Source: a virus
Strand: one strand, 5' to 3'
Length of the DNA stretch: 64,000 nucleotides
Virus record (IMG/VR): IMGVR_UViG_3300023170_000009
Coordinates: 62,001 to 126,000 of that record
Every line of letters starts with the position of its first letter. Position 1 is the stretch's first letter. The notes beneath the pieces were generated by a model, which saw only the letters and a program-made list of their open reading frames with translations, searched no databases and had not been told where the DNA came from. Both the position numbers and the translations under genes were made by a program. Positions 31,651 through 62,567 of this stretch are shown here, piece after piece.

Positions 31651-31887
31651 TTAGTAAGTACCGCCATCCAATCTTGTTACCGTTGTTGCCAACTCACTAG
31701 CGGGTGCTGCCTCCCAGTTTCCTGTTGCTGCGTCATAAACCAATGTATAACCATCTTCTGCCCCAGCTGTATCTACACCATTTAAATTATCTAAGGTTGT
31801 AGCTGTGGTAACTTTAGACTTTGTTGTAACATTAGAAACTGTTCCACTTCTATTCGTTAAAGGTACTGTTACCTTAAATGTTGCCAT
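31651..31887 (-). CDS. Short structural protein ending LDGGTY
   Basis: A 78-residue protein, MATFKVTVPLTNRSGTVSNV at the start, a GAEDGYTLVYDAATGNWEAAP middle that reads like a fibre repeat, and the C-terminal tag TRLDGGTY shared with two other fibre-cluster proteins. Overlaps the upstream gene by one base. Function unknown, presumably virion-associated. Confidence 0.72.
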   Translation of the reverse strand: MATFKVTVPLTNRSGTVSNVTTKSKVTTATTLDNLNGVDTAGAEDGYTLVYDAATGNWEAAPASELATTVTRLDGGTY

Positions 31888-32216
31888 TATCGTGTTACCT
31901 CCGGAGTTATGGTTATAATACCCTCTAAAACTCTAACCGTTTCACTATTTCCTTCAATCTCTATATCATACACATATCTTCCAGCCTTCAATTCGGAAGT
32001 TTGTGTAGCAGTTAATGAAATGGTTATTTCGCCTTCTAAATCTACTTTAGAGGTTGTAAAACTTGTATAAGTATTAGAGTAATAGCTTTTTCTAAGTTGA
32101 GCGCGTACTGTATAATTAGATAGATCTTTACCAGATCCATCGTCATTAGTTAGTCCTATTGTGAAATCGAAGGTAGTACCCTGATCTATAACAATGTTTT
32201 TTACGGTAGCCATCAA
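31887..32216 (-). CDS. Small beta-sandwich virion protein (BppU/Ig-like)
   Basis: A 109-residue protein with the pattern NIVIDQGTTFDFTIGLTNDDGSGKDLSNYTVRAQLRKS, followed by EITISLTATQTSELKAGRYVYDIEIE and LEGIITITPEVTR. This matches the general form of small Ig-like or baseplate BppU-type N-terminal domains in many phages. It leads the fibre unit behind a late promoter (32236) and borders the plus-strand island. Confidence 0.75.
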   Translation of the reverse strand: MMATVKNIVIDQGTTFDFTIGLTNDDGSGKDLSNYTVRAQLRKSYYSNTYTSFTTSKVDLEGEITISLTATQTSELKAGRYVYDIEIEGNSETVRVLEGIITITPEVTR

Positions 32217-32250: not shown

Positions 32251-32907
32251 TTGATTACAATGAACACCATTTTAACATTAAAATACGGAAACAAATACAC
32301 GTCGAATGACGTTAATTCTATTTATGAAAAAACAAGACCCCACAATTTTGTCTGTGTCACAGATAATCCTGAGGGTCTAGATCCAAATATACAAGTTATT
32401 CCTATAACTTGGGAAATAGAAGGACATTGGGAAAAGGTTAAGTTAATGCGTTATAATAATCTAGGCTCTGTATTGTACCTAGATTTAGATATTCGTATAC
32501 AAAAAAATGTAGATAATTTTTTTAAAATGCTTGACAAAACCCCTATGATTTGTTATACTTATTGGAAACCTAATGATCTAGCGTTCATCAAATCTAAAGA
32601 CTGGTCTTATAATTATTTAAGTAACTATAACTCTAGTGTCATGATGTGGCAAGATGCTACTCACATATATAATTATTGGAAGGAAAACTCCGACTATTAT
32701 ATGGTAAAATATGCAGGAGATGATAGATTTCTATTTCATGAGGGATTTACTTTTGAACACTTCCCAGAAGGAGAAGTATATTCCTTTTGGTTTGACGGCG
32801 GAAAGATAAAACCAAAGGCAACAATTGCTTTATTAAATGGACAAGAAAGTATAGAGGAAAATATAGCAAAGCATTATGATGAACTTTATTTGCATCAAAT
32901 GGGGTGA
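32251..32907 (+). CDS. GT-A glycosyltransferase-like protein, island paralogue 1
   Basis: A 218-residue protein. Shared family features: N-terminal LKYGNKYTSNDVNSIYE, VCVTDNPEGLD, YLDLDIRIQKNVD (about 72-84) with a D-x-D metal site, and a late YSFWFDGG. The pattern resembles GT8-like nucleotide-sugar transferases but is short. No Shine-Dalgarno is visible before the ATG. It opens a six-gene-plus block of overlapping plus-strand genes. Acceptor unknown. Confidence 0.78.
   Translation: MITMNTILTLKYGNKYTSNDVNSIYEKTRPHNFVCVTDNPEGLDPNIQVIPITWEIEGHWEKVKLMRYNNLGSVLYLDLDIRIQKNVDNFFKMLDKTPMICYTYWKPNDLAFIKSKDWSYNYLSNYNSSVMMWQDATHIYNYWKENSDYYMVKYAGDDRFLFHEGFTFEHFPEGEVYSFWFDGGKIKPKATIALLNGQESIEENIAKHYDELYLHQMG
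32531..32559 (+). promoter_or_regulatory. Near-consensus sigma70 promoter inside glycosyltransferase 1
   Basis: TTGACA (32531-32536), 17-base spacer, TATACT (32554-32559); 11 of 12 consensus bases. It could drive the next glycosyltransferase genes. It lies in coding sequence, so chance is possible. Confidence 0.5.
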
Positions 32908-33655
32908 TAAATATTCTCCTGAATATGTAAACAACCTCAAAAACATGGTCGAAAAAAACTTTACACGGCCGTGTACATTCACCTGTTTCACAGACGATCC
33001 TGCAGGATTAGAATGTGAATATCTACCTATTCCAGATGTACAACCATTGCATCCTAAATACTGGTTTGGTAAAGATAACTATTGTTGGGATAGAGCTAAA
33101 TTCTTTGTGTTTAATGCACACAATATTTTAGGTTATAAAGGCAAGTATTGCTATTTTGATTTAGATGTAATAATTCAAAACAATATAAACGACTTAGAAA
33201 TATTGGCAAAAAAACCAAGACTTGTACATTCCAAATGGCAACCAGACGGACAACAACACGATAGATTTTTTATAGACATTCGTGGCACATATTATAATAC
33301 AAGTATGATGTGCTGGGAATACAATCAATGTGAGCAAATATATTACGATGTTTTAGAGCATCAAGATGTTGTGTTCAAAACATTTTTTAAAGGATCAGAT
33401 AACTACCATTATTGGAGACAGCGTAATTTCTGGGGCAACATTCCTTTTGATTGGGTATACTCTTATAACAGAGGAGCTCATTGGAAAGAGGATAACGACA
33501 AGTATAAATATAGAAAAGAATACAAAGTTTGTATTTTTAACACAGATTTAACACCCGATCCTGCAGCTAAGGATCAAATTAAGATTAGTGATTTACAAGA
33601 TGAGAAACTTTTGAGGCATTGGCATGGAGCTAACTTTAATAGCAAATCTACTTGA
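32876..33655 (+). CDS. GT-A glycosyltransferase-like protein, island paralogue 2
   Basis: A 259-residue protein starting MMNFICIKWGDKYSPEYVNNL. Motifs: CFTDDPAGL (about 40-48), HPKYWFGK (about 60-67), YFDLDVIIQNNI (about 93-104, D-x-D), WRQRNFWGNIPFDWVYSYNRG (about 182-202) and VCIFNTDLTPDP. It closely parallels the 35359 gene in all these blocks, so the two are recent paralogues. Overlaps paralogue 1 by 32 bases. Confidence 0.82.
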   Translation: MMNFICIKWGDKYSPEYVNNLKNMVEKNFTRPCTFTCFTDDPAGLECEYLPIPDVQPLHPKYWFGKDNYCWDRAKFFVFNAHNILGYKGKYCYFDLDVIIQNNINDLEILAKKPRLVHSKWQPDGQQHDRFFIDIRGTYYNTSMMCWEYNQCEQIYYDVLEHQDVVFKTFFKGSDNYHYWRQRNFWGNIPFDWVYSYNRGAHWKEDNDKYKYRKEYKVCIFNTDLTPDPAAKDQIKISDLQDEKLLRHWHGANFNSKST

Positions 33656-35123
33656 TACCAAGTATACCCAAGTCCAAGTAAATAATTTTTACACTCAAGC
33701 AAAAAACTTGATAAAGGATCCTTTTGAGTTTGTTGTCTTTACTACACAAGAAGAACTAGATGAAATGGTAGAGACAAACAAAATCAAAGGGTATGCCATG
33801 CCCTTTAAAATACATGTACCGAAATATGGACATGAATGGTTAGAGATAGATTTAATAAAACATACACCAAAATATGGCGTATCTTTATTTGTTACACCCA
33901 ATATTCTTTTAAACAATCCAGAGAAAATCCTGGAGTATAAAACTGCTGGTATAGACAAGTGTATTATGCAAGACGGCAATGTTGCATACTTCGTTAACCA
34001 TAACAAATTTGTTAGCAACGTTTTACAAAAATGGGAAAGAGAAGAAAACGATTTAACTTTTTATAATCACGAATTTAAACAAGAATTTCAAGTTAATGAA
34101 ATGGATACTTTACCATTTCTAAATTCTAAAAATAAAGAATATCCTGTAAGTCTAGATGATCCTATAGTAGCTTTTCCTTTTTGGTATACACATAAAGTTG
34201 ACAGCTATATAGAATCCTGTTATAATAGATCTACAGATTTATATCCATATCTACCGAGAGCACTTGAAATAGAAATATGTGGATTTACTGTAGAAGAAAT
34301 AAAAAATATCTTTACTGAGGACTATACAAATTTAGCTAGAATGTCTAAAATAGTATTATCCAATGATGAAGAAGAACCTACTAACTGTAAAGACTTTTAT
34401 GATATATGTGAATATCTAATGGAAACAAGAAATATTAGTATTGACTTACTAACAGATTTAACAAACTTTGACAAGTATTGGTGGGGAACAGTAGGCATAC
34501 TATTTAAAAATATGGGAAACATCACAGTAACCATAAACGACATATATAATAGAGAAATAGAAAAACAGATGTCAAATGCTGAGGCATTGTTACAAAGTGG
34601 AGCTAGAGTATTTTGGCAATACACTAGAACAACACAAACAGATGAGGACATAGAGAAAGCTAAAGCACTTTCTAAAAAACATAAGTTCTCAGGATTTAAC
34701 TTTATTGAAAATAAAGTCGAAGAAAAAATAAATGTAGTAGAGGTAGAGGAAAAAGAAGACTTGCCTGACTACAAGTTAATAGAGTTGGAGACAATCAAAC
34801 TTAGGCAAAAAGACGCTGAGTATTTAGACGTTAAGGTAAAATTTGATAAACAAGTAAGATGCTTAGCAAAAATAGAAAACAAGGCCTATATTGATAAAGA
34901 AGGAAACGTTTTTCCATGTGTATTTACTGCTAAAAACATATTAGTAGCAAAAATAAATCCTTACGAGGAAACAGATATTTTGTACGATTGGAAAAGTAAT
35001 AACTGTAAAGTACACGGATTGAAAAAAATATTCACTAACAAATTTTTCACATCTTACTTTACCAACAAACTAAAATTAGATCCTAGTCTAATTTGTAATA
35101 AAAAATGTGGAGTATTAAAATGA
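33624..35123 (+). CDS. Fusion: degenerate GT-like domain plus radical-SAM/SPASM-like domain
   Basis: A 499-residue protein, not recognised as a known family. Residues 1-195 begin like the neighbouring glycosyltransferases (IANLLDTKYTQVQVNNFY, FVVFTT) but have no D-x-D. Residues 198-499 follow the layout of radical SAM proteins: CYNRSTDLY at the place of CxxxCxxC (only the first Cys kept), KIVLSNDEEEPTNCKDF where the GNYGDP-type strand would be, a barrel-like middle (SIDLLTDLTNF, VTINDIY, FWQYT), and a SPASM-like end with IDKEGNVFPC (Cys432) and Cys491/Cys495. Loss of the cluster implies a non-radical or pseudo-enzyme role. Inference from pattern only. Confidence 0.7.
   Translation: MELTLIANLLDTKYTQVQVNNFYTQAKNLIKDPFEFVVFTTQEELDEMVETNKIKGYAMPFKIHVPKYGHEWLEIDLIKHTPKYGVSLFVTPNILLNNPEKILEYKTAGIDKCIMQDGNVAYFVNHNKFVSNVLQKWEREENDLTFYNHEFKQEFQVNEMDTLPFLNSKNKEYPVSLDDPIVAFPFWYTHKVDSYIESCYNRSTDLYPYLPRALEIEICGFTVEEIKNIFTEDYTNLARMSKIVLSNDEEEPTNCKDFYDICEYLMETRNISIDLLTDLTNFDKYWWGTVGILFKNMGNITVTINDIYNREIEKQMSNAEALLQSGARVFWQYTRTTQTDEDIEKAKALSKKHKFSGFNFIENKVEEKINVVEVEEKEDLPDYKLIELETIKLRQKDAEYLDVKVKFDKQVRCLAKIENKAYIDKEGNVFPCVFTAKNILVAKINPYEETDILYDWKSNNCKVHGLKKIFTNKFFTSYFTNKLKLDPSLICNKKCGVLK
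34198..34226 (+). promoter_or_regulatory. Perfect sigma70 promoter inside the fusion gene
   Basis: TTGACA (34198-34203), 17-base spacer, TATAAT (34221-34226), all 12 bases matching. It lies at the boundary between the two halves of the fusion protein (codons 192-201) and would transcribe the C-terminal half and the genes to 38.1 kb. Confidence 0.7.
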
Positions 35124-35362
35124 ACACGACAAGAGAAATAAGAAAGTCAACCGCATATATGGGTTCCTTTAATGATTGGAATAATGAGGATACAGACTTC
35201 GTTATTGATTCTGTAAGAGGAGGCAGGTTTGTTTCTATTGTAGTTAAAGGTCCCAGGGAACAGTTTGACGATACATCTAGCAATATTGTATGTGAACTTG
35301 TAAATTATGGTTTGATGTACGGCAGAGACTTTATTCTACAAAACCTGACGGAGACATCATGA
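35120..35362 (+). CDS. Small unknown protein
   Basis: An 80-residue protein starting MNTTREIRKSTAYMGSFNDW; this ATG overlaps the preceding stop (AATGA), which fits the coupled style of the island better than an earlier start at 35105. It has mixed alpha/beta pattern (FVSIVVKGPREQF, LVNYGLMYGRDFIL) and no motif I recognise. It ends in an ATGA overlap with the next glycosyltransferase. Confidence 0.7.
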   Translation: MNTTREIRKSTAYMGSFNDWNNEDTDFVIDSVRGGRFVSIVVKGPREQFDDTSSNIVCELVNYGLMYGRDFILQNLTETS

Positions 35363-36171
35363 GAGTAAATGTCGTATGTTGTAAATGGGGAACCAGGTAT
35401 GGTCCTCACTATGTTAATCGTTTATATAACATGTCTAAAAAGAATATAAACGATAAGCACGAGTTTCATTTTTACTGTTATACAGACGACAGCGAGGGCC
35501 TATTAGATGACATTAAAGTTATACCATTTCCTGATATTCCTAATATCCATCCTAAGTATTGGTTTGGCAGCGATGATTTCAAGTTTGGAATGGCAAGGTG
35601 CTGGGACAGGCCTAAAACATTTATTTTTAATACGCATAACTTTGCTGATGATAAGCCTCATGGCCGCTTTATCTTTTTTGATTTAGACGTTGTAATACAA
35701 AGAGATTTAGAACCTGTTCTAACTTACAATATGGAACGTCCAACAAAAATGAGATCTTGGTGGCAGGATCCTCGCCCAATGAAAACAAGAAGATTTAAGT
35801 TAGCACATGGAGCGCATACCAACGGCTCTTGTCAGGTATGGAGCGATGATCAATGTGAGGTAATATGGGAAGATGTATTACAAAACCAAGATAAAATATG
35901 GTTCACTTATACAGACGGAACAGATAATTATCACAGTTGGAAGTGGAGAGACTTATGGGATCACTTTCCCTCAGAATTTGCCTACTCCTATAACAGAGGA
36001 AGGGACTGGGAGTCAGGTGATTTAGAAGTTGGTATATATAGGGAAGGTTGCATTCTTTGCGTATTTAATGTGGACATACTTCCTTTTGAGGATAACAGTC
36101 GAGGACATGTAAAACAAGATGACCTCGCAGATCCTAAATTATTAAAGCATTGGACAGTGAATGAACTTTGA
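35359..36171 (+). CDS. GT-A glycosyltransferase-like protein, island paralogue 3
   Basis: A 270-residue protein with all shared blocks: VVCCKWGTRYGPHYVNRLY, CYTDDSEGL, HPKYWFG, RFIFFDLDVVIQRDL (about 104-118; D-x-D), WKWRDLWDHFPSEFAYSYNRGRDWE and CVFNVDILP. This is the best-preserved member of the set and nearest to paralogue 2. Acts in the cytoplasm of the host (no signal or membrane segment). Acceptor may be phage tail proteins, host glycans or DNA. Confidence 0.84.
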   Translation: MRVNVVCCKWGTRYGPHYVNRLYNMSKKNINDKHEFHFYCYTDDSEGLLDDIKVIPFPDIPNIHPKYWFGSDDFKFGMARCWDRPKTFIFNTHNFADDKPHGRFIFFDLDVVIQRDLEPVLTYNMERPTKMRSWWQDPRPMKTRRFKLAHGAHTNGSCQVWSDDQCEVIWEDVLQNQDKIWFTYTDGTDNYHSWKWRDLWDHFPSEFAYSYNRGRDWESGDLEVGIYREGCILCVFNVDILPFEDNSRGHVKQDDLADPKLLKHWTVNEL

Positions 36172-36781
36172 AGAAATTGTAAAGTTAAGTCCTGAAATAA
36201 GTAATGTTTTTGATTATGAAGTATTTGAAAATGTTATTAACTTGTTGGGCAAAGACGAAGTACATATACTAGAAATTGGAAGTTGGAAAGGAGCGTCTGC
36301 AGTTGCTTGGTCCGAGATTTGTATTAAAAAGGGAATAAAGTATTCTGTGGAATGTTTAGACTGTTGGGATAATAGTCCAACAACAACATCAAATTTTGTC
36401 TGGAAAATGTTTGAGGAAGAGAAAGGACAAAACAAAAAAAATTATGAGTGTTTTTTAAAGAACACGAAAGACTACAATATTAGTCATAAGAAGATTCCTT
36501 ACAGCTACCCAATATTTTGGAACGAACACCGAGCCAGTAGAGGGACTTACGATATAGTGTATTATGATGCAGCACATGACAAAAACTCTACTTTTAATAG
36601 TTTAATCTACTGGTCGCCTAAAGCAAGTTACATGGTTGTAGATGATTATTTTGAAGGTTTTGATAAACAACAATTATGGCAAAAAGAATGTACTATAGGT
36701 ATTAATTTAGCAGCAGATTATTTAGGAAAAACAATAGTCAAACAATCTGCAACAAACAAAGTGATATATTGGGAATGTTAA
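36161..36781 (+). CDS. Class I SAM-dependent methyltransferase-like protein
   Basis: A 206-residue Rossmann-fold protein. Motif I is VHILEIGSWKGASAVAW (about 31-47), an acidic end of strand 2 is CLDCWD, and DIVYYDAAHDKNSTFNSL (about 126-143) followed by YMVVDDYF matches the Methyltransf_24 type found in sugar and glycan methylation loci. Overlaps the flanking glycosyltransferase genes by 11 and 7 bases. Likely methylates a sugar made or attached by the neighbours; inference. Confidence 0.8.
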   Translation: MNFEEIVKLSPEISNVFDYEVFENVINLLGKDEVHILEIGSWKGASAVAWSEICIKKGIKYSVECLDCWDNSPTTTSNFVWKMFEEEKGQNKKNYECFLKNTKDYNISHKKIPYSYPIFWNEHRASRGTYDIVYYDAAHDKNSTFNSLIYWSPKASYMVVDDYFEGFDKQQLWQKECTIGINLAADYLGKTIVKQSATNKVIYWEC

Positions 36782-37458
36782 ACATCTATACAGTTAAATG
36801 GGGAACAAAATATTCCCCCAAGCACGTTGAGGCTATTTACAATAGTTGTAAAAAGTTTATAACCTGCGACTTTAATTTTTATTGTTTAACAGAAGATCCT
36901 AAAAACTTACACGAGGATATAAAAGTTATTCCATTGCCAAACGATAATAAATTAGAAGTTTGGTGGAATAAAATGTATTTGTTTGATGAGAATGTTGTAA
37001 GACAAAAAGGAGAAAAATTATTCTTTGACTTAGACATTATTATACAAAGAAATATAGATGAGCTTGTTAATTACGACCCCGAGGATTGTTTGTGCTTTTT
37101 AAAAACACATTGGCACGACATGGAAACGCAGTATAAAGAAACAAGGCATATACCTCATAAGTATACAGACTTAAACTCTTCTGTATTACGTTGGAACGAC
37201 AATTTAAATACAGAAGAAATAACATTGTATTTTAAAAAACATATAAAACAAATTTTATGGTATTATAGAGGAATAGATAATTTTTTCCACCATCGTGGTG
37301 TGGCTAGAATTAAATATTTTCCTATAGGATGGGCATATAGTTATAACGTAGGATATATATACCCACATGATATAGAAACACACGTCTATAGACAAATTCC
37401 CTACGTTTGTCTATTTGACTCAATGGGAAGAAAAGAAGATGTCAAACTTGAACTTTAA
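36775..37458 (+). CDS. GT-A glycosyltransferase-like protein, island paralogue 4
   Basis: A 227-residue protein; the ATG at 36775 gives MLNIYTVKWGTKYSPKHVEAIY, matching the paralogue N-termini better than the ATG at 36769. It keeps CLTEDPKNL, LFFDLDIIIQRNID (about 84-97; D-x-D), a RGIDNFFHHRG block and WAYSYNVG, and ends with VCLFDSMG. It overlaps the methyltransferase stop and the next gene. Confidence 0.82.
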   Translation: MLNIYTVKWGTKYSPKHVEAIYNSCKKFITCDFNFYCLTEDPKNLHEDIKVIPLPNDNKLEVWWNKMYLFDENVVRQKGEKLFFDLDIIIQRNIDELVNYDPEDCLCFLKTHWHDMETQYKETRHIPHKYTDLNSSVLRWNDNLNTEEITLYFKKHIKQILWYYRGIDNFFHHRGVARIKYFPIGWAYSYNVGYIYPHDIETHVYRQIPYVCLFDSMGRKEDVKLEL

Positions 37459-38116
37459 TTTTTTAAACAATTTAAAACATTGGGGAGATGGCTTAGCTAA
37501 GGTAGAACATGAAATGCCCCACAAGCATGATGACTTTAGACAGTCTCTGAACCCAAATACAATGGAAGGTGCTATTTGGTTAGTCGAAGAACTTAAAAAA
37601 GTTTTAGACGAACACTATATGAAAGAAAGCGACTTTAATATATTAGTCCTTAATTCTTGGCTAGGTGTTCCACTTGTTCCTTTATTGTGTGAAAATTTAT
37701 CTGTAGGACAATTACACTTAGTTGATATAGACCCCGAGGCTTTAGAACTTTCTAAAGTATTTAACTCGCATTATATAACAGAAGAATTTATTAAAATACA
37801 ACACTGGAACCTAGATGTTCCGTTTGCTTTTGATGAATTAAATCAACTGAACGTAGATGTTGTTATCTCTTTAGGGTGTGAACAAATGTATCCTTTACAA
37901 GAACTAATAACAGCTAACAAACACGCAATATTTGCTTGTCAGTCTTCTAATGTTATTGAGGAAATGTACGGTATTAATTGTGTTGATACTACAGAAGCAC
38001 TAATTGAAAACGTTGGGCTAGAAGAAGTATATAGTTCTGGAAAAACAATTCAATACTATTATTCTTGGGACGGTAAAAAGTTTTACGATAGATTCCAAGT
38101 TATTGGAAAAAAATAA
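37439..38116 (+). CDS. Methyltransferase-like Rossmann protein
   Basis: A 225-residue protein. The start at 37439 has GGAAGAAAAGAAG upstream and is chosen over 37415. The core NILVLNSWLGVPLVPLL (about 64-80) and LHLVDIDPEALELSKVF (about 87-103) resemble motifs I and II of class I methyltransferases, with VDVVISLGCEQMYPL as motif IV position; the glycine-rich loop is atypical (NSWLG). Conserved PHKHDD lies near the N-terminus. It closes the coupled part of the island. Confidence 0.7.
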   Translation: MSNLNFNFLNNLKHWGDGLAKVEHEMPHKHDDFRQSLNPNTMEGAIWLVEELKKVLDEHYMKESDFNILVLNSWLGVPLVPLLCENLSVGQLHLVDIDPEALELSKVFNSHYITEEFIKIQHWNLDVPFAFDELNQLNVDVVISLGCEQMYPLQELITANKHAIFACQSSNVIEEMYGINCVDTTEALIENVGLEEVYSSGKTIQYYYSWDGKKFYDRFQVIGKK

Positions 38117-38130: not shown

Positions 38131-38514
38131 ATGTCTAGCGTAATCGAAATCACAGATAATGCGATACAGAAACTTCTTGAAAAACAAGAAAAAGACGGCT
38201 TTAAAAACATCCGACTCGGAATTACAGGCGGAGGTTGCGCTGGCTTTGAATACGTTTTCGACTCTATTAATGATAACGGCGATGTGTCTGATGATATATT
38301 TGTTGATTATGGTAGGTTCGGCGTAGTAATAGATAAAGTATCTATACCTTACATAGTGGGAATGACATTAGATTGGCAAACAGAAGGTCTAAATGAATTT
38401 TTTAAATTTGTAAACCCTAAGGAAAAGGATTCTTGTGGGTGTGGGGTGAGTATAAACTTTGACTTAGAACAAGTTGAAATAGATACAAATAAAATTACAG
38501 CAATAAATATTTAA
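38131..38514 (+). CDS. hesB: HesB/IscA-type iron-sulfur carrier protein
   Basis: A 127-residue A-type carrier. It starts with IEITDNAIQKLLEK, has GGGCAGFEYVF (Cys36) and the C-terminal CGCG pair (Cys102, Cys104), which together are the three cluster-binding cysteines of IscA/HesB proteins. Such proteins deliver Fe-S clusters; in this phage the radical SAM QueE would need one. HesB genes are known in marine T4-like phages. It is convergent with the 2OG-oxygenase-like gene (4-base overlap of the ends). Confidence 0.93.
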   Translation: MSSVIEITDNAIQKLLEKQEKDGFKNIRLGITGGGCAGFEYVFDSINDNGDVSDDIFVDYGRFGVVIDKVSIPYIVGMTLDWQTEGLNEFFKFVNPKEKDSCGCGVSINFDLEQVEIDTNKITAINI

Positions 38515-42713: not shown

Positions 42714-45700
42714 TTAAGCCTGTAATGCAATAGCTCTAAGTTCTTTAATAGTAGGAACTTTTGCTGGTTGTGAGGATATTGGCACAATCTTCACTGCAAA
42801 CTCTTTATAAGAGGTGTAAGTAATAGTTGTTTGACTTGCCGTTGCTGTAGCATCTACCGAAGCACCTCCTCCAGAAATTGTTACTGTTACGGTACCGCCT
42901 GTATATCCTCTTCCAGGATTTACAATGTCTATGCCTGTTACTAAACCAGTTGCCGTATTAACATTAGCAACCGCTGTTGCTCCATAGCCATTCCCTGAGT
43001 GTTCTATTGTTACAGAAGGTTGTGAAGTGTACCCAACACCTGGTGTTGAAAGTGTTATACTATCAATAACATCTACATCATACTCAAACTTTAAGCTAGT
43101 TGGATTTAATCCGTAAGAATCACCCGGTGCTTTTTCAGGTATTGAATAAACATAATCCTGTTGAGCTCCTGTAACGTTACTATTCTCTCTAGCTAAATCG
43201 CCTTGGAGTTGTAAAGGTATCCAGTATGCATCTTCAAATAATTCACCACTATCCTGTCCGTTTAAGAACTTGCCATATACTTTTACATCTGTACCTGCTG
43301 GTAGAGAGTTGGATAGATACACATTTAGATCTTCTGCATCTTGTCCTTCATCCAATATAACCTTCCTAGTTATATATCTTGAACGAGCATCTCCACCGCT
43401 TCTTTGATCTTCATTGGTATAAACATCATCAATATCATTTTTAAATATTAATTGATTTAACTGTAAGGTATCAACTAATGGAGATACATTAGGATTGTTT
43501 GTGCTTAAAACTAATTTTACAGCAACATCTCTAGCATCTGCATTGTCTCCTTCAGAAGTGTAAATATTAGAAATAGATCTAACCATTCTTCTTTCTAAAA
43601 GTTCCTCTGTTCTTCCCAGCTCAAACGCTGTCCAATTGGAATCCTGTGTTCCTGCAGTATCTCTTAATTTGTAATATGCTTGTACAGATGTGCCAGGTGG
43701 CTCTACTATAGATTTGGAAAGAGCTAATGCATCAATATATCTACTGTCAATGCTTTCTATTTCATCATTGGTGATATCAGATGTTCCAAACCAAGGTCCG
43801 ATCATAATCTTATCTCCTGGTTCAAATGCTACGTCATTAGCCGCTCCACCGATATAACCTGTAAAGGAATTAATAGACCAAGTTTCCACCTCAAGATATT
43901 CTCTTAATGGATGAACTTGTATAATATCTCCATTAACCACGAATATATCTACGGTTGCATCTTGAGTAGCACCACCACCAGTAACGGTTGCTGTTAAATT
44001 GTCCCACCAAGCCACCGTTTCTGTTCCAGCGCTAATAACATTGACACCTGTCATCTCTCCTGTAACAGTATCAACTACCGCCTCAAGAGTAACTCCTTTA
44101 TTTGTACCATCAAAGACAGACTCTACAGTTATAGTAGGCGTGCTAGTATAACCGGCACCTGGACTTGTTACAGATGCCTTAACAGTATGTATCATATGGC
44201 GTGGTTGGATAGAATTATACTTGCTAGGGTCACTAAGTTTTATATAATCTCTTGTCGCATTTCTTATGTGCAGTTCTCTACCTGAACCAACTTCAAATGA
44301 ACACTTGTTAATTGCAAACATCATATCTAAAGACTGTTGAGGAGTCCAAGAAACATTATTGGCAGATGTAAACATAATACCATTATGAGGTTGTTTAGCA
44401 ATTCTTGTCTCTGTTCCTACTTGGAATTCTCCTAATTCTGAAATCCATATTTCCCAACCTGGGTTGTTGTTAGCGGGGATTGGAACAAAACAGTATTCTG
44501 TCTCGTTCAAAAGATAAACGGGCTTATTAAATCTAAACATCGACGGTACAAACTGTACTGCACCCCCCTCAGATTCTTCAGACGGTGTAATCTCCCAGTT
44601 GCTCATAGTGCAACTTCCCAATACCTTCTCGCCAGGAACACCATTGACAACTTCTCTTATTTGTAAAGTTACTTCTGCCCATTCATATGCTGGATCTGGG
44701 ACAGTTCTAAAATATAGTTGAACGTCCCGTAAGAATACGCCCCCAGATTCTCCGCTTACTCTAAATGTTTGTGCTAGAGGATCTTGATATCCCCAGCCCC
44801 AACCGCGTTCTCCACCACCAATCCATAGGTCGTCCCATATTCTAATCGATAGATCTGGAATAACAAAAGACCAAGGTGTTTGAGCAGGCGCCGGAGGAAT
44901 AACTGGCGGCTCTGGTGTGGCAGCTGGAGGTTCTGGTGTTGCTACCGGAGGCTCTGGTGTTGCTGGAGGAGGATCTGCAGGCCCTGCAGGTGGGGGAACA
45001 GGCTGTTGGGTTGTCTTATTGTGTGCAACCATTCCGTTCGCCACGTAATTGTGCGAGCCATCTGTTTCAAAGTTATATACTTTTACTGTCTGCAGTCCCA
45101 TCCATTGAATACTTGTAACTTCTTTTTCTGAAACTGTGCCATCAAGTTCAATAGAAATAATTCTATCACCAACTTCTAACTTACTAACTTCTAAATTGTA
45201 TTGTTCGTATACACCTATTTCTTTTGTTATGTCTGGATTAATAGATTTCCATCCATCTGTTGTCATAAATGGGTGACCGGGTGTTACACCACCAACGCCG
45301 TTAATTTGAAATATATCCTGCGGCGCTTCTGTGATATGGTGAACCTTAACTACAGTATTTACTGTATAGTGCTTACCTGCTAACCCACTTATACCTGCGA
45401 CTTTATCCCCCGCTTCAATCTCTTCAATAGGTTTGACGCCATTCTCTGCCATTAAAATTTCTGTTCCCGCAATAAAACATAGTGTGTGCGTTCTTGGAGG
45501 AGGATCAATTCTAGTCCAATCCAAATCTGGATCAAAGGTTGCTGGTTCAAAAATAACAGTTGTTACCGGCCAAGGTACATAATTCGGAATAGGAATAGGA
45601 TTAGGAATAATCTCAGGAGGAGGTAAAGGAACACCGCCACCCGCCACATATTCATATACTTTATCTGTTACTACTCTATCATCTGTAACCGTATTTTTTG

Positions 45701-48700
45701 TAACATTTACAGTTCTTGTAGAAACGATTGTGTTTTGTTTTGTCTGGGACATTCCAGAGCTTTGGAATGTTGCCTCACAAGACGTTGTCGTAAACCTATC
45801 TCTATTTAAACTATCGTCAGTAAACATCATAACCCTGACGCCTGTTTGGAAAACTCCTGCAGGTACCCTAAAGTATCCGTATAAAGAACCTACAGAATCC
45901 GTAACTAAAGAGCCACCTGGATTAGGATAAACCCAAGTTCTATCCGTACCCGGCAATGCCATTGTTGCGGGATCTTCTGCAGCAAATGTAGCATATTGTC
46001 CTGTATCTACAGACTGGCCTGATAACCTAATCGGTGTTTGCGGTTTAGGAACTCCTCCTTCTTTTAATCTTGCAGTGGCTCCACAATATTGTGAAACATT
46101 AACACCATCAAAGAAAGGATAAACTCTTGTGTTTGGTTTCATATTTTTCAAGTGGAAGTGAATTACTCTAGGCCTCATATAGCCCAAGATTGATGTATCT
46201 ACTACCATGTTTCCTAGAGAATAAGATTCTAAACCTCCTTCAGAAACATCTATTGTTGTTCCACTTCTTGTTTGATTTTGGCTAGTAGTGTATGTAATAA
46301 ATGAATCGGAACCGCCCGTTGCATTGTCAACCTGTCTTGTAATAGTTTCTCGGTCGGTCTCAACCTTTGTCATTGCTCCAACGTCCTCCCAGTCACCCCA
46401 TTGAGTACCGAAAGCGTCTTCCATCTTTTTCCAAGCATCATAATTTCCACTAAACTCTACGGAAACTTCTGGTGCAGTATCTGTGTCTACCCAGTTATCT
46501 ACTGAAGGAGACAAAGTACAGGTTCCTCTGTAATTAAACAGTAATTCAGAAACTAGGTTCTTAGGTTGGCTGGCAAACATATTAGCTGTCAATCTTGTTC
46601 CTTCATATGGAATTGTTGCCCAAAGTCCAGAATCTCCTGACTCCCAAGCCCAGGCTGTTTGTGCTGTGGTATTTGTCCAATCCATGTCTGCGTCTAAAGA
46701 TTCACTATAAAAATACGGACGCAAATGCTTCTTCTTAAAATCCATTGAGCAATGATAATCTGGATCTTCTACGGCTCCTACAGAGTGTCCTGTAAAATTA
46801 TCTACAAGTATGCCGTTTTTAAATCTATTTAATCCACTGTTAGCGTTTGTAATTTGTAAAGATTCTGCTGCCTTTTCTAGCAAAGTTAATGTAGTGTAAT
46901 ATTCTAGATTTTTAATTCTTTTCTCTAAAACACCAATATCTCTCATTGTAAAACGTCTATTGTCTGACTGTTTTACAACAATATCGTAATCGTATCTGTT
47001 TAATCTCTTAGCTGCCTTTGCCGACAAACATGGATATTGCGGCAAGTTAAAGGAAGCCAACTTCATGCTTGCTTCTGGGGTTTGTGGGAACTTGGGACTA
47101 GCAGAGTAAGCTGACTCAATTACTCTAAACTCGCCATGTTCATCTAAAACAATAATTGCGTTTCTGCCTAGATAGTATTCTAAATCTGTTGTAAACTGTT
47201 CTGTTGGAATAGGATTAGTTAACCCTGTATTGGGTCTAAAAATTATTTCTACTTCCGAAGGATTTAAAGGCGCGCCCGCAAGTGTTGATGTTGGCGTAAC
47301 AGTGCTTTGCATCATAGGCCTAAAATCAATACAGTCCCTAAGATCCATATTTCCAAAATACTTGGACTTATACAGTGGTATTTCTTCAGTTTTAATTCCA
47401 GTAGCTCCTGTATCATCTACGGGATAAGAATTAATACAGAAGAAAGATGCTGTACTATAAGAATGTGAGAAGTAATCAAATGTTACTTGTAAATAAGGAT
47501 ATGTTGAAAGATTTACAGACGCTGTTTTCTTTTTAACTAACTTTGCATGTCCATAAAAACTGTCCTTTTGTCCGTTGTCCATTGTAAATTGATTTGTAAC
47601 ATCTATAGGACTGCTAAAGTTTGAGTTGGCAGATGCATATACAGATTTAATTTGAAAACCATCTGCAACCCCTAGACTCCAAGGTCCACCGATTCCTTTA
47701 GGGTGGGCTGCAACGTTAAATGTTACAATTTTATCTGACTGTAAAGACTTAGATGCAGGAGTTCCATCAATATGTTGTAGATTTGCATATACTCGAACTT
47801 GGTTTGCTGATCCCGTTAAAACACCTAAATTAATTGTGATGTGCTTAGAGCTATTTAAAGTAAATGTTGCTCCAGATAAATCAATATGCTCACCTGCAGC
47901 ATAAGTAATACCACCGAGGATTACCTGTTCTCTAGCAACTGCTAAGAAATTGTCTTCAATCACAGTTTGTGTGAAACTTGAATATGGGAATGTGTCGTTT
48001 GGCAAATTATACTGTGAGCTACTAGAGCTAATATCTAGTTCTACGTTACCAGAACTATCTGCAGTTACATCAAACTCTCTACTGTAGATAAAGGAGTAAT
48101 CGTAACCACCGTTGTCTGTTGCCATGTTTTTAACAGCATTGTATGGAAGTTTCCATAACATTTTATTGAAAGAATTTTCTTTTAATACGGCGCTGTCAGG
48201 AGTACCATCTCCTGTTGTATCTTCTAAAATAAGATCTGCATAACCATCGGTTTGTGCGTGATCAAAATGCAAGCCTCTTACGGATGTAAAAGGGCCGTTG
48301 AGCATTTGAATATCATACAAATATATTCTATATTTTGCTGATGCTAAACCAGGTGTTCCTTCTTCTAAAGCTATATGTCTTACTCTTGCTTTACCTACTA
48401 CGCTTCCTGTGCTTGTTCCTGATGTAATAAACCCAGGTGCGGTGTCTAATAAATCTACTCTACCGCCACCATCGACATCAAACAATCCATAAACTTCATT
48501 TGCCAAAACATAATTGCCATATGCTGTTCCAATAGAAGCACCTTCAACATATTTGTATTCTGTTGATTTATTAATCTCTATTCTTTTTGTTTGCTCTAGT
48601 CTTCTAGGATACCCAGCAACAACAGCTTCACCCGCATCAATATTTACTAGGAGTTTTGTTGCATCTCCTCCTTCTGCAGATGTAAAGAATCCAGAATTTT

Positions 48701-49703
48701 CTCCGTCATTCAAGTGTTCTTGTACTGTAACTTTTAATCCTCTTACAACATAATCACCAGATTCGTTGTATGTTCTTTTTGCTAACTCTTTACCTAAAGC
48801 GTTAAAAGGATCAGTTTTTGTTTGTACTACAGTAGGCGAACCAAATTGGTATTGCCCATACTGTACAAAGTTTTCAGGCTGTATGATGCCTGTGTCTGCA
48901 CCCCTAACGTTAGTGGTGAAAGATGTTAAGCCTATAGTATATCTAAGTCTGTCTGCACCCGGTGCGTTTTCGTTATAAGATCCAGCTGCCGGATCTAACA
49001 GCGAGCTGTCTTCACCTGAGTTTATAATTTCTTCATATAAAGTAAATCCAACATTAATTAATTTATCTTCGTGAGAATATCTGTGAAGATAAGTTGATAT
49101 TTGGTTGGACTGTACAAAGGCACCGTTTATATAAATTAACCCGGGAGAAAGTGTTATTTTTCTTGATTTTCCGTAATAACTGTTTTCACTTACACCCGTT
49201 GAACTTCCAACCACCACTGTTGAATTATTTAAACTAGAGGTATTAGAATAAATGTCTAATACTTCTCCTGGTTGAAATACTTGATAAGTTCCTGTAGTGT
49301 CGCCTGATGTGTATCGAATATAAAACGTTTTTGTGTCAGGTGCTTCCGCCTGTGTGCCTGTTGCAACTTCTAGGACTTTGGCTTGTATACCTGTTGTTCT
49401 TCCTACAACAATAGCATTGACATATCCAGCAAGAGTTTCATCTGCTAAATCTATACCATTAATATCTGTATCATTAATTTTAATCCAATCAATATCCGCT
49501 AAATCTTCTTTACAACCAGAGACAATGGTACCTTCTCTTAAAACATAGGTTCCTAATTGAGAAACTTGGTTGCTCAATATACTTTGTAGCTGTGTTAGCT
49601 CTCTTGCCTGTACAGCAACACCTGGCTTAAAAAGAATCCTCTGAAACTTTTTACCTTCAGAGAAATCGTCGAAATATGGTGCTGAATTTAAATTAATTGC
49701 CAT
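42714..49703 (-). CDS. Giant baseplate/tail protein with N-terminal DUF4815 and internal HINT domain
   Basis: A 2329-residue protein. The start NLNSAPYFDDFSEGKKFQRILFKPG is the N-terminus of the DUF4815 virion family of cyanophages. Residues about 1360-1408 and 1563-1620 are Pro-rich (PEPP repeats on the C-side) and flank a HINT domain at 1409-1562: CFIAGTEI block A, TPGHPF block B, and SHNYVANGMVAHN block G. The next residue is Lys1563, not Cys/Ser/Thr. The C-terminal part has three copies of a G-Y-x3-P-T beta module shared with gp8 and the gp7-position protein. It follows gp8, where T4 has gp9/gp10; role in the baseplate is inferred. Confidence 0.9.
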   Translation of the reverse strand: MAINLNSAPYFDDFSEGKKFQRILFKPGVAVQARELTQLQSILSNQVSQLGTYVLREGTIVSGCKEDLADIDWIKINDTDINGIDLADETLAGYVNAIVVGRTTGIQAKVLEVATGTQAEAPDTKTFYIRYTSGDTTGTYQVFQPGEVLDIYSNTSSLNNSTVVVGSSTGVSENSYYGKSRKITLSPGLIYINGAFVQSNQISTYLHRYSHEDKLINVGFTLYEEIINSGEDSSLLDPAAGSYNENAPGADRLRYTIGLTSFTTNVRGADTGIIQPENFVQYGQYQFGSPTVVQTKTDPFNALGKELAKRTYNESGDYVVRGLKVTVQEHLNDGENSGFFTSAEGGDATKLLVNIDAGEAVVAGYPRRLEQTKRIEINKSTEYKYVEGASIGTAYGNYVLANEVYGLFDVDGGGRVDLLDTAPGFITSGTSTGSVVGKARVRHIALEEGTPGLASAKYRIYLYDIQMLNGPFTSVRGLHFDHAQTDGYADLILEDTTGDGTPDSAVLKENSFNKMLWKLPYNAVKNMATDNGGYDYSFIYSREFDVTADSSGNVELDISSSSSQYNLPNDTFPYSSFTQTVIEDNFLAVAREQVILGGITYAAGEHIDLSGATFTLNSSKHITINLGVLTGSANQVRVYANLQHIDGTPASKSLQSDKIVTFNVAAHPKGIGGPWSLGVADGFQIKSVYASANSNFSSPIDVTNQFTMDNGQKDSFYGHAKLVKKKTASVNLSTYPYLQVTFDYFSHSYSTASFFCINSYPVDDTGATGIKTEEIPLYKSKYFGNMDLRDCIDFRPMMQSTVTPTSTLAGAPLNPSEVEIIFRPNTGLTNPIPTEQFTTDLEYYLGRNAIIVLDEHGEFRVIESAYSASPKFPQTPEASMKLASFNLPQYPCLSAKAAKRLNRYDYDIVVKQSDNRRFTMRDIGVLEKRIKNLEYYTTLTLLEKAAESLQITNANSGLNRFKNGILVDNFTGHSVGAVEDPDYHCSMDFKKKHLRPYFYSESLDADMDWTNTTAQTAWAWESGDSGLWATIPYEGTRLTANMFASQPKNLVSELLFNYRGTCTLSPSVDNWVDTDTAPEVSVEFSGNYDAWKKMEDAFGTQWGDWEDVGAMTKVETDRETITRQVDNATGGSDSFITYTTSQNQTRSGTTIDVSEGGLESYSLGNMVVDTSILGYMRPRVIHFHLKNMKPNTRVYPFFDGVNVSQYCGATARLKEGGVPKPQTPIRLSGQSVDTGQYATFAAEDPATMALPGTDRTWVYPNPGGSLVTDSVGSLYGYFRVPAGVFQTGVRVMMFTDDSLNRDRFTTTSCEATFQSSGMSQTKQNTIVSTRTVNVTKNTVTDDRVVTDKVYEYVAGGGVPLPPPEIIPNPIPIPNYVPWPVTTVIFEPATFDPDLDWTRIDPPPRTHTLCFIAGTEILMAENGVKPIEEIEAGDKVAGISGLAGKHYTVNTVVKVHHITEAPQDIFQINGVGGVTPGHPFMTTDGWKSINPDITKEIGVYEQYNLEVSKLEVGDRIISIELDGTVSEKEVTSIQWMGLQTVKVYNFETDGSHNYVANGMVAHNKTTQQPVPPPAGPADPPPATPEPPVATPEPPAATPEPPVIPPAPAQTPWSFVIPDLSIRIWDDLWIGGGERGWGWGYQDPLAQTFRVSGESGGVFLRDVQLYFRTVPDPAYEWAEVTLQIREVVNGVPGEKVLGSCTMSNWEITPSEESEGGAVQFVPSMFRFNKPVYLLNETEYCFVPIPANNNPGWEIWISELGEFQVGTETRIAKQPHNGIMFTSANNVSWTPQQSLDMMFAINKCSFEVGSGRELHIRNATRDYIKLSDPSKYNSIQPRHMIHTVKASVTSPGAGYTSTPTITVESVFDGTNKGVTLEAVVDTVTGEMTGVNVISAGTETVAWWDNLTATVTGGGATQDATVDIFVVNGDIIQVHPLREYLEVETWSINSFTGYIGGAANDVAFEPGDKIMIGPWFGTSDITNDEIESIDSRYIDALALSKSIVEPPGTSVQAYYKLRDTAGTQDSNWTAFELGRTEELLERRMVRSISNIYTSEGDNADARDVAVKLVLSTNNPNVSPLVDTLQLNQLIFKNDIDDVYTNEDQRSGGDARSRYITRKVILDEGQDAEDLNVYLSNSLPAGTDVKVYGKFLNGQDSGELFEDAYWIPLQLQGDLARENSNVTGAQQDYVYSIPEKAPGDSYGLNPTSLKFEYDVDVIDSITLSTPGVGYTSQPSVTIEHSGNGYGATAVANVNTATGLVTGIDIVNPGRGYTGGTVTVTISGGGASVDATATASQTTITYTSYKEFAVKIVPISSQPAKVPTIKELRAIALQA
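45018..45479 (-). other. HINT (BIL-type) autoprocessing domain
   Basis: Codons 1409-1562 of the giant protein: begins with Cys, ends with His-Asn, 154 residues, no homing endonuclease. Lys at +1 fits bacterial-intein-like type A domains, which cleave more than splice. Pro-rich linkers on both sides suggest that cleavage would free an N-terminal part of about 1408 and a C-terminal part of about 767 residues. Confidence 0.88.
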
Positions 49704-61175: not shown

Positions 61176-62567
61176 TTATATCTCCTCTCCCAACGATTTA
61201 CCTACGCCGTTTTTAACAATCTCTAAAGTCATTGAATGTTTTGTAACATCAAACTTATGATGTATGGCTGTGATTAAATAAGGACCTGACAATATAGGAT
61301 CAAAAGCATTATCAGGATCCACATCAAACTCCTCTTCTTTTGCTTTGGGTGTTGGGAATAACAAATTAATAACCCTTCCAACTTCTATATCTGTTCTTCC
61401 AGGAACATCCATTCTAAATTTAAATTGATTAAACGAATTTGAATAAGATGTTCTAAAAGAAACGTTTCCTATATAATCTTCTTGTAAACTATAGTCGTCA
61501 AATAAATGAGAATTTAATGAAACAAAAGAAACATTAGAGTAAGGTGTTCTATCAACATAAGCGGGAATAGCTATACCTGCATCTGTTCTAATCATCTTTT
61601 TCATTTGCTCTCTAAAATCAAAATTACTTTCAAATTGTTCTCTTGTTGTAAAATTGTAAGCCCTAACACCATTCGCATAAAATCCAGAATCCTGTCCTTC
61701 CAATATGTCCATTGTTTTAGGAATCGTAATATCTTCAATTTTTGTGAATTCTGGAGGAAGGCTAACAGAATTGTAAACATAACTTCCTTGTCGTCTTACG
61801 AGATTAATACCCACGGGCTCATATACATATTCATCAAATAGCCCTTGTTTTAATTGCATAGCAATCAACCATTCTAAAGTACAAAAATAAAAAAACTTAT
61901 TCGACTCAAAAAATTGAAAGTCTGTAGAATTTAGTGTTGCTCCTTTAGCATATTTAGAAATAAAGTTTATATTTCTAAAGGGAGTCCAAAAATTTGAAAC
62001 ATATCTAACATTAGAAATATGATCTGTATCACCAATAACAAGTCCCGTGGTGCCTACTTCTCTAGGCTCAAAAACGTTATCAGATACTTCTGTATTTTCT
62101 ATTAATCTTGGAGTTTGTAAATACTCTGTATATATTTTGTCTACGATGTCAGAAGTTACACCTTTAAATGATTTAGAAATTGGAGAACATTGATCTACCA
62201 ATCCCTCTCTAGACATAAAACAAAGTCTATAGTCTTGTTGTCTATCAGTAGCTAATACCCTATCTTCAATCGCATATAATTGAAAAGTTTTTTGTATTAT
62301 TTGTGTTGGATTGTCTTCAAACGTGGGTGTTCTAAGTTTTAATGTAAGCAACTCGTTACCTAATATTGGAAACTCAGTTATAACATTCAAACCGTCAGAT
62401 ATGATAACATTACCAAACATAACAGGAGAAAATACATCTTCAAATAGATTTATTTCTGCAGTGAAGTTTTTTAGATTTAAACTATCGCCAGAAATCAAAT
62501 TAGTTAGAAATATTTCTTCTAATCTATAATCACCGGCCTTTAGTATTCTTTCTTCATCTATTGACAT
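61176..62567 (-). CDS. gp27-like baseplate hub protein
   Basis: A 463-residue protein just upstream of gp5. The N-terminal half LEEIFLTNLISGDSLNLKNFTAEINLFEDVFSPVMFGNVIISDGLNVI is the tube-like hub fold start seen in marine T4-like hub proteins, and GRTDIEVGRVINLLFP, GPYLITAIHHKFD near the C-terminus is typical of gp27/gpD-family hubs. Trimeric hub that connects the tube to the spike. Named by fold-type motifs and order; T4 gp27 is 391 residues. Confidence 0.85.
   Translation of the reverse strand: MSIDEERILKAGDYRLEEIFLTNLISGDSLNLKNFTAEINLFEDVFSPVMFGNVIISDGLNVITEFPILGNELLTLKLRTPTFEDNPTQIIQKTFQLYAIEDRVLATDRQQDYRLCFMSREGLVDQCSPISKSFKGVTSDIVDKIYTEYLQTPRLIENTEVSDNVFEPREVGTTGLVIGDTDHISNVRYVSNFWTPFRNINFISKYAKGATLNSTDFQFFESNKFFYFCTLEWLIAMQLKQGLFDEYVYEPVGINLVRRQGSYVYNSVSLPPEFTKIEDITIPKTMDILEGQDSGFYANGVRAYNFTTREQFESNFDFREQMKKMIRTDAGIAIPAYVDRTPYSNVSFVSLNSHLFDDYSLQEDYIGNVSFRTSYSNSFNQFKFRMDVPGRTDIEVGRVINLLFPTPKAKEEEFDVDPDNAFDPILSGPYLITAIHHKFDVTKHSMTLEIVKNGVGKSLGEEI

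Follow-up and report, generated by a model that had tools for sequence, protein, structure and literature searches.

A conserved fusion of glycosyltransferase-like and radical-SAM/SPASM-like domains in marine phages, a probable helper of the neighbouring glycosyltransferase

Introduction

What could be the function of a protein in which two enzyme folds are joined and both appear to have lost the residues of their classic chemistry? The question is raised by an uninterrupted open reading frame in a viral DNA stretch of 64,000 nucleotides (the window, positions 62,001 to 126,000 of record IMGVR_UViG_3300023170_000009). A sequence-only reading of the window had described the frame as an intact fusion of a glycosyltransferase-like (GT-like) N-terminal part and a radical-SAM/SPASM-like C-terminal part; the frame was confirmed, from the ATG at 33624 to the stop codon ending at 35123 on the plus strand (499 amino acids), and both parts are seen in the predicted fold. 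The record belongs to a virus of 162,417 bases with T4-type structural genes, and the named phages that come closest to it in the major capsid protein are Methylophilales phage Melnitz (71%) and the Pelagibacter phages HTVC008M and Mosig (69%).

Architecture and family of the fusion protein

The fusion is divided as follows, with the evidence in brackets.

33624..35123, plus strand: pseudo-GT / pseudo-radical-SAM / SPASM-like fusion, 499 aa (open reading frame, orthologues with conserved architecture, fold)
33624..34250, plus strand: N-terminal GT-A/GT8-like domain, residues 1-209 (fold, hhalign to neighbouring GTs)
33894..33902, plus strand: TPN at the place of the GT DxD motif, residues 91-93 (TPN in 51/51 distinct proteins)
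34239..34706, plus strand: radical-SAM-type barrel of six strands that lacks the CxxxCxxC loop, residues 206-361 (strand and helix order of the model, structural matches)
34860..35120, plus strand: SPASM-like end with C413, C432, C491 and C495, residues 413-499 (Pfam SPASM, cysteine conservation)

The AlphaFold2 model was made from an alignment of 28 orthologues, a subset of the 33 distinct proteins known at that stage, which contained zero radical-SAM or GT rows. Its mean pLDDT is 72; the GT-like domain and the barrel are the best parts, and residues 364-414, 433-452 and 482-499 lie below 50. In the predicted model the N-terminal domain has a GT-A fold, and VIA-align places residues 1-209 on the GT8 structure 3tzt (Z 11.3, rmsd 4.9, 197 residues), GlyE (Z 10.7) and glycogenin-2 (Z 9.7). 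Six alternating strand and helix elements at residues 213-361 form a predicted partial (beta/alpha)6 TIM-type barrel, and residues 206-486 match PqqE (Z 16.2, rmsd 3.8, 212 residues), SuiB (Z 16.1), SkfB (Z 14.3) and MoaA (Z 13.3). Foldseek agrees with VIA-align on these folds, including in a viral library search. The sequence-only reading depended on the C-terminal part being a TIM-type barrel with a SPASM-like end, and in the predicted structure it has this form.

By sequence, a search of 50,697 named phage records with the whole fusion gave no match at E 0.01, and at the sensitivity of these searches none of the named phages carries it. The C-terminal part has zero matches there even at E 10, and seven scattered weak matches of the N-terminal part (E 0.9-8, mostly DNA ligase genes) were dismissed as chance. 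A PDB sequence search returned nothing credible.

The architecture had been called unusual. The architecture itself stands, but it is not a one-off, since it is conserved in a family that counts 51 distinct members in uncultured marine phages. A viral-contig alignment scan gave 60 loci, a scan with patterns from the C-terminal part added more, and a single genome-contig scan gave one MAG contig (L130). The scans overlap in loci (L034 and L107 are one contig), and counts are therefore given as distinct proteins. The frame is intact in 50 of the 51, the exception being a frameshifted copy at L183:3404-4444 (346-aa ORF), and relatives with 41-45% identity to the window protein still have the architecture. 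The combination of two apparently inactivated halves with an intact frame is supported across the family.

The same phage is represented in other samples by four contigs (L001-L004), all of which stop in the middle of the gene at window positions 34365-34405, with overlaps of up to 41 nt. Two pattern scans of both flanks found no alternative continuation around these positions, and the 53 full-length loci and 50 intact distinct proteins rule out an assembly chimera. The L130 contig (PCBP01000045.1) carries the full fusion cassette and is binned as a Flavobacteriales MAG; the bin probably holds a phage contig, and host inference from it is therefore unsafe. The carriers of the fusion are uncultured marine myophage-like viruses.

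Gene neighbourhood

The fusion is part of a plus-strand cassette with the order gtA-gtB-fusion-gtC-(methyltransferase)-gtD-p37415, which is flanked by tail-fibre/neck genes on one side and a 2329-aa structural giant on the other. The neighbours in the window are the following.

31887..32216, minus strand: small protein, 'L-shaped tail fiber protein assembly' (phrog_3304; phrog match)
32251..32907, plus strand: gtA, glycosyltransferase (phrog_1962; phrog match, BLASTP, locus order)
32876..33655, plus strand: gtB, GT8-like glycosyltransferase with intact DxD, the proposed partner (upstream neighbour in 59/59 loci)
35359..36171, plus strand: gtC, glycosyltransferase, the best conserved GT of the cassette (BLASTP to gtB 40%)
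36161..36781, plus strand: Methyltransf_24 protein (of the 62 loci compared, the window alone has this label)
36769..37458, plus strand: gtD, glycosyltransferase (phrog_1962; phrog match, BLASTP, locus order)
37415..38116, plus strand: p37415, conserved last cassette gene (methyltransferase-like by eye only; no family match)

The motif [FLM]DLD is intact in all distinct proteins of the four transferases (gtA 31/31, gtB 33/33, gtC 29/29, gtD 24/24). The fusion lies directly downstream of gtB in each of the 59 loci with upstream sequence (62 loci examined), and in all 59 the two frames overlap by 20-35 nt (32 nt in the window). Downstream of the fusion, gtC follows in 39 of 53 loci and another ORF in 14.

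Several further features of the neighbourhood were recorded. The 14 ORFs include a gene lying between the fusion and gtC (L078:6685-7356, L080:4449-5132, L111:2619-3332 and others), which we take to be ThyX-like from a motif read by eye in six distinct sequences; with this motif and zero link to GT or radical-SAM profiles, it was rejected as a further GT. An opposite-strand ORF of 108-114 aa adjoins gtA in most loci. Among named phage records gtC has no match at 1e-5, and gtD has two matches. An A-type Fe-S carrier gene (38131-38514; TIGR00049, 88.4 bits against a cut-off of 58.8) adjoins the cassette, among the 62 loci compared, only in the window. The giant protein (42714-49703, minus strand) has weak Hint/intein-like matches at residues ~1409-1562 (Intein_splicing, Vint and Hom_end_hint, all under their cut-offs), and an intein or Hint domain is possible there.

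Relatives in which gtB carries a covalent tail

A viral scan with gtC, taken for the best 80 of 280 relatives, gave 74 new loci that were classified. The window-type fusion is present in 32 of these 74, and in 38 a single long protein occupies the gtA-gtC slot. Two loci (L251, L269) are incomplete because their contigs end there. In L252 and L255, gtB (259 aa, 68% to the window gtB) stands directly before gtC with neither fusion nor tail; gtB can therefore exist without the module, which is not universally needed.

The long protein has 438-912 aa when complete and consists of a gtB-like GT with DLD followed by a tail of ~200 residues; a pattern locates DLD in 21 of the 22 distinct complete proteins, and L207 reads IDLD. 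Where the protein is longer, GT and tail are separated by a helical linker; L216:995-3511, L226:772-3495 and L238:755-3493 contain a repeated linker, 'GDMISMHKKFLADFP...WNKD', which in L216 gives a sub-threshold DUF6557 match. The tail profile is aligned by hhalign to the C-terminal part of the fusion at E 1.2e-21 and to intact radical-SAM proteins at E 6e-13, compared with 0.25-0.32 for reversed tails. The tails lack a large part of the barrel's second half, and in the alignment they read 'ELTNK-x-ND', where shown, against 'ELSSxCNAxC' in intact proteins. All 22 distinct full-length proteins have CxxxCxxC, a SPASM-side motif, at the extreme C-terminus; Pfam SPASM scores 21.8 bits on L206. The structure prediction of L206 has a mean pLDDT of 48.8 and was left unused. 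The pseudo-GT domain is absent from this fused architecture. Among named phages, a gtB-tail protein matched Mosig over the GT part only.

Proposed role

The invariant gene order with overlapping frames, together with the covalent gtB-tail proteins, makes gtB the natural partner, and judged from this arrangement the fusion is probably a helper of gtB. In the sequence-only reading the protein was a possible scaffold from which the neighbouring transferases receive a substrate; a partnership is supported and can be narrowed to gtB, in which the module may bind and present a substrate or may instead stabilise or regulate gtB. We assign a probability of about 0.5 to the reading that the radical-SAM/SPASM fold has been co-opted as a non-catalytic subunit of gtB. 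Its more detailed form is put forward tentatively: the stripped fold would be an acceptor-binding or regulatory subunit of the GT, attached covalently or through the pseudo-GT, in which a Cys/His metal site is retained.

In the window lineage the radical-SAM/SPASM module would be supplied to gtB in trans. GT-A domains often pair, and the pseudo-GT domain may dock on gtB; since this domain is missing from the fused architecture, the docking role is a guess. With C413, C432 and the C-terminal Cys/His as ligands, the SPASM-like end would enclose a metal or an Fe-S site, and it may bind or position the acceptor. More weakly, the acceptor could be either a polypeptide of the phage tail fibre or a glycan on the host surface, because the cassette sits between tail-fibre and baseplate genes.

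The acceptor is also the subject of a different reading, according to which host lipopolysaccharide is the target of the cassette (superinfection exclusion) and the fusion aids that activity, not the modification of phage proteins. A section of PMC7029224 gives this reading for GT clusters in host-recognition islands of pelagimyophages, and we infer that the island of the cassette may be equated with these. However, the closest solved folds of the C-terminal half are peptide/protein SPASM enzymes (PqqE, SuiB, SkfB), and the cassette has a tail-fibre-assembly-like gene at its side; neither point is decisive, and we regard the lipopolysaccharide reading as rather unlikely. It is compatible with the helper role.

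A comparable arrangement is known for P450 homologues. According to a section of PMC3391682, the glycosyltransferase EryCIII is stabilised by EryCII, which is homologous to P450s and is described as having no heme, and EryCII also activates it allosterically. Like EryCII and DesVIII in that section, the fusion is a cofactor-less homologue of an unrelated enzyme and is encoded with a GT, on which its action is in our case presumed. Unlike them, it unites radical-SAM/SPASM and GT-A parts and is not a P450 without the heme cysteine. The EryCII complex is proven, whereas a complex between the fusion and gtB is suggested by gene order, frame overlap and the gtB-tail relatives; these relatives are fused, whereas the section on EryCII and DesVIII describes no covalent fusion (PMC3391682). 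Cofactor-less GT helpers are already known for P450s, and in the portions of the open-licence PMC literature that were searched no degenerate radical-SAM/SPASM protein is described as a GT partner.

Two aspects give the helper reading a wider meaning. First, the proteins form a natural series, from intact radical-SAM/SPASM proteins to a full pseudo-barrel on a pseudo-GT and a half-barrel on a DxD-bearing GT, which allows the role of the SPASM end to be studied apart from radical chemistry. Second, the cassette offers a testable glycosylation system in uncultured marine phages, where it adjoins the tail-fibre genes.

The SPASM-like end

The only Pfam match to the fusion is sub-threshold SPASM (PF13186; residues 417-495 of the window protein, 19.1 bits, cut-off 21.5), which reaches 21.7 bits with neighbours in frame. 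Among the full-length distinct relatives, C413 is kept in 50/50 and C432 in 44/50. At the C-terminal end at least one cysteine is present in 50/50; in 48 of these it is a single cysteine, the end reading H...C (47) or W...C (1), and CxxxCG occurs in two, the window protein with CNKKCG and L185 with CKLKCGAC. For the most part, the SPASM cysteines of the sequence-only reading are retained, and at the C-terminus there are exchanges of Cys for His. Non-cysteine ligands have been proposed for SPASM clusters in a section of PMC5491770, and the change from Cys to His fits that proposal. Nevertheless, C432 is lost in 6/50 and the C-terminal ligands are variable, so that a conserved metal site is uncertain, and owing to the low pLDDT of the SPASM-like end a meeting of the predicted ligands could not be shown.

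The same residues could be understood as those of a redox or metal sensor, in which the Fe-S state of the SPASM-like end switches the neighbouring GTs. The constancy of C413 and of at least one C-terminal cysteine (both 50/50), the C-terminal CxxxCxxC of the 22 gtB-tail proteins and of L185, and the A-type Fe-S carrier gene beside the window cassette would agree with such a subunit. However, with C432 missing in six of 50 proteins, a C-to-H change in 47 of 50 tails and the carrier gene adjoining the cassette solely in the window among the loci compared, a sensor appears improbable.

The N-terminal pseudo-glycosyltransferase domain

The likeness of the N-terminal third to the neighbouring GTs, as noted in the sequence-only reading, is found in the predicted fold and is weaker by sequence. 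BLASTP gives no match between the N-terminal part and the neighbouring GTs better than E 0.29; its first 43 residues are aligned to them by hhalign at E 2.4e-6, the reversed-sequence control giving E 0.1. It is the predicted fold, not sequence, that settles the GT-like identity of this part. A derivation specifically from gtB was rejected (hhalign to gtB alone E 0.83; gtA is best, E 5e-4).

The absence of D-x-D, which had also been pointed out, proved to be general: the window protein reads VTPN ('LFVTPN') in its place, and TPN occupies the DxD position in 51/51 distinct fusion proteins. With the GT8/GT-A enzymes (gtA-gtD, phrog_1962) the domain shares the predicted GT-A fold and an N-terminal D-x-x-Y stretch. 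Unlike gtA-gtD, it has TPN for DxD, is shorter (by ~60 residues relative to gtB/gtC) and has no match to phrog_1962. GtfB of the streptococcal GtfA/GtfB pair is an inactive GT subunit; the fusion resembles it as an apparently dead GT homologue beside an active one and differs from it in having a radical-SAM/SPASM part.

It may be asked whether the N-terminal domain is still an active GT that works without a DxD-bound metal, with the pseudo-radical-SAM part as its acceptor-binding domain. Metal-independent GT-A enzymes exist, the predicted GT-A fold is kept, and N8, D11 and Y14, which lie in the segment that holds the nucleotide in GT8 enzymes, are invariant in 33 distinct proteins. However, the replacement of DxD is without exception, the domain is short, an intact GT always adjoins the fusion, and the fused relatives use gtB itself without the pseudo-GT. 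An active enzyme is therefore considered quite improbable.

The barrel without its cluster motif

An intact radical-SAM/SPASM paralogue with CNAECLFC is encoded by the same phage (L006:958-2073, minus strand), and it matches residues 223-497 of the fusion by BLASTP at E 3e-10. The orthologue profile of the C-terminal part matches 41 intact phage radical-SAM/SPASM proteins over 275 columns (E 4e-36, probability 99.9). At least five further radical-SAM-type ORFs occur in this phage, at 11-15 kb, 44-46 kb and 138-154.5 kb of the G000 record (L027, L028, L029); two of them have ~500 aa and are twitch-like by eye.

A barrel without CxxxCxxC, the motif of radical-SAM enzymes (PF04055), had been read from the window protein, and the motif is absent across the aligned relatives as well. 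It occurs in none of the 53 full-length proteins among the 62 examined, and after the first barrel strand the cysteine loop is gapped in 50/50 aligned relatives. Homologues retaining the barrel CxxxCxxC were absent among the relatives found by pattern-based scans, which recover only relatives keeping the chosen peptides, so that cysteine-bearing fused homologues could escape. Individual residues (L006 numbering) were compared with 37 of the 41 intact rows, the four most distant (L010|291, L049|597, L059|6252 and L060|7443) being dropped, as was the frameshifted L183 on the fusion side. The three cysteines and R27 are present in 37/37 intact rows and 0/50 fusion proteins. D130, G131, Y139, R140 and N172 are likewise each present in 37/37; in the fusion they are mostly N/T, gaps or L/S, with D130-G131 changed to N (46/50) and T (48/50) and the Y139-R140 pair gone in 50 proteins. 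On the other hand, W287, W331 and structural residues are retained, as are the SPASM cysteine and glycine positions. The fusion therefore shares with the SPASM/twitch proteins (PqqE, SuiB, SkfB, L006:958-2073) the predicted barrel fold, the order of elements, C413, GNVFPC432 and, in part, a GxxGDP-like turn, and differs from them in lacking CxxxCxxC, D-G and Y-R, in having fewer SPASM cysteines and in being joined to a pseudo-GT. In a tree with 12 fusion rows, made by a quick method and subject to a long-branch warning, the fusion clade is separated from the intact proteins by a branch of length 1.74 (SH-aLRT 100).

A radical enzyme whose CxxxCxxC cluster site has been relocated to the C-terminus is suggested by CKLKCGAC in L185 and by the C-terminal CxxxCxxC of all 22 distinct gtB-tail proteins, but the window protein has only CNKKCG, 48/50 relatives have a single C-terminal cysteine, further residues invariant in the intact relatives are gone and in the gtB-tail proteins the barrel is without its second half, which makes such an enzyme very hard to credit.

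Selection on the fusion

The median dN/dS among relatives is 0.208 (NG86), with 0.219 for the N-terminal part, 0.273 for the barrel and 0.129 for the SPASM part; the method is simple and the median dS of ~1.2 is near saturation, so these values are rough. Judged from them, the fusion is clearly under purifying selection. It is the fastest-evolving gene of the cassette, gtA-gtD and p37415 having lower values of 0.053-0.150, and its speed fits a binding role but also a relaxed constraint. This speed and the frameshifted L183 copy are what a functionless, decaying relic would have in its favour, but 50 of 51 frames are intact, the architecture persists at 41-45% identity, and the median dN/dS rejects a pseudogene, so that a relic is scarcely tenable.
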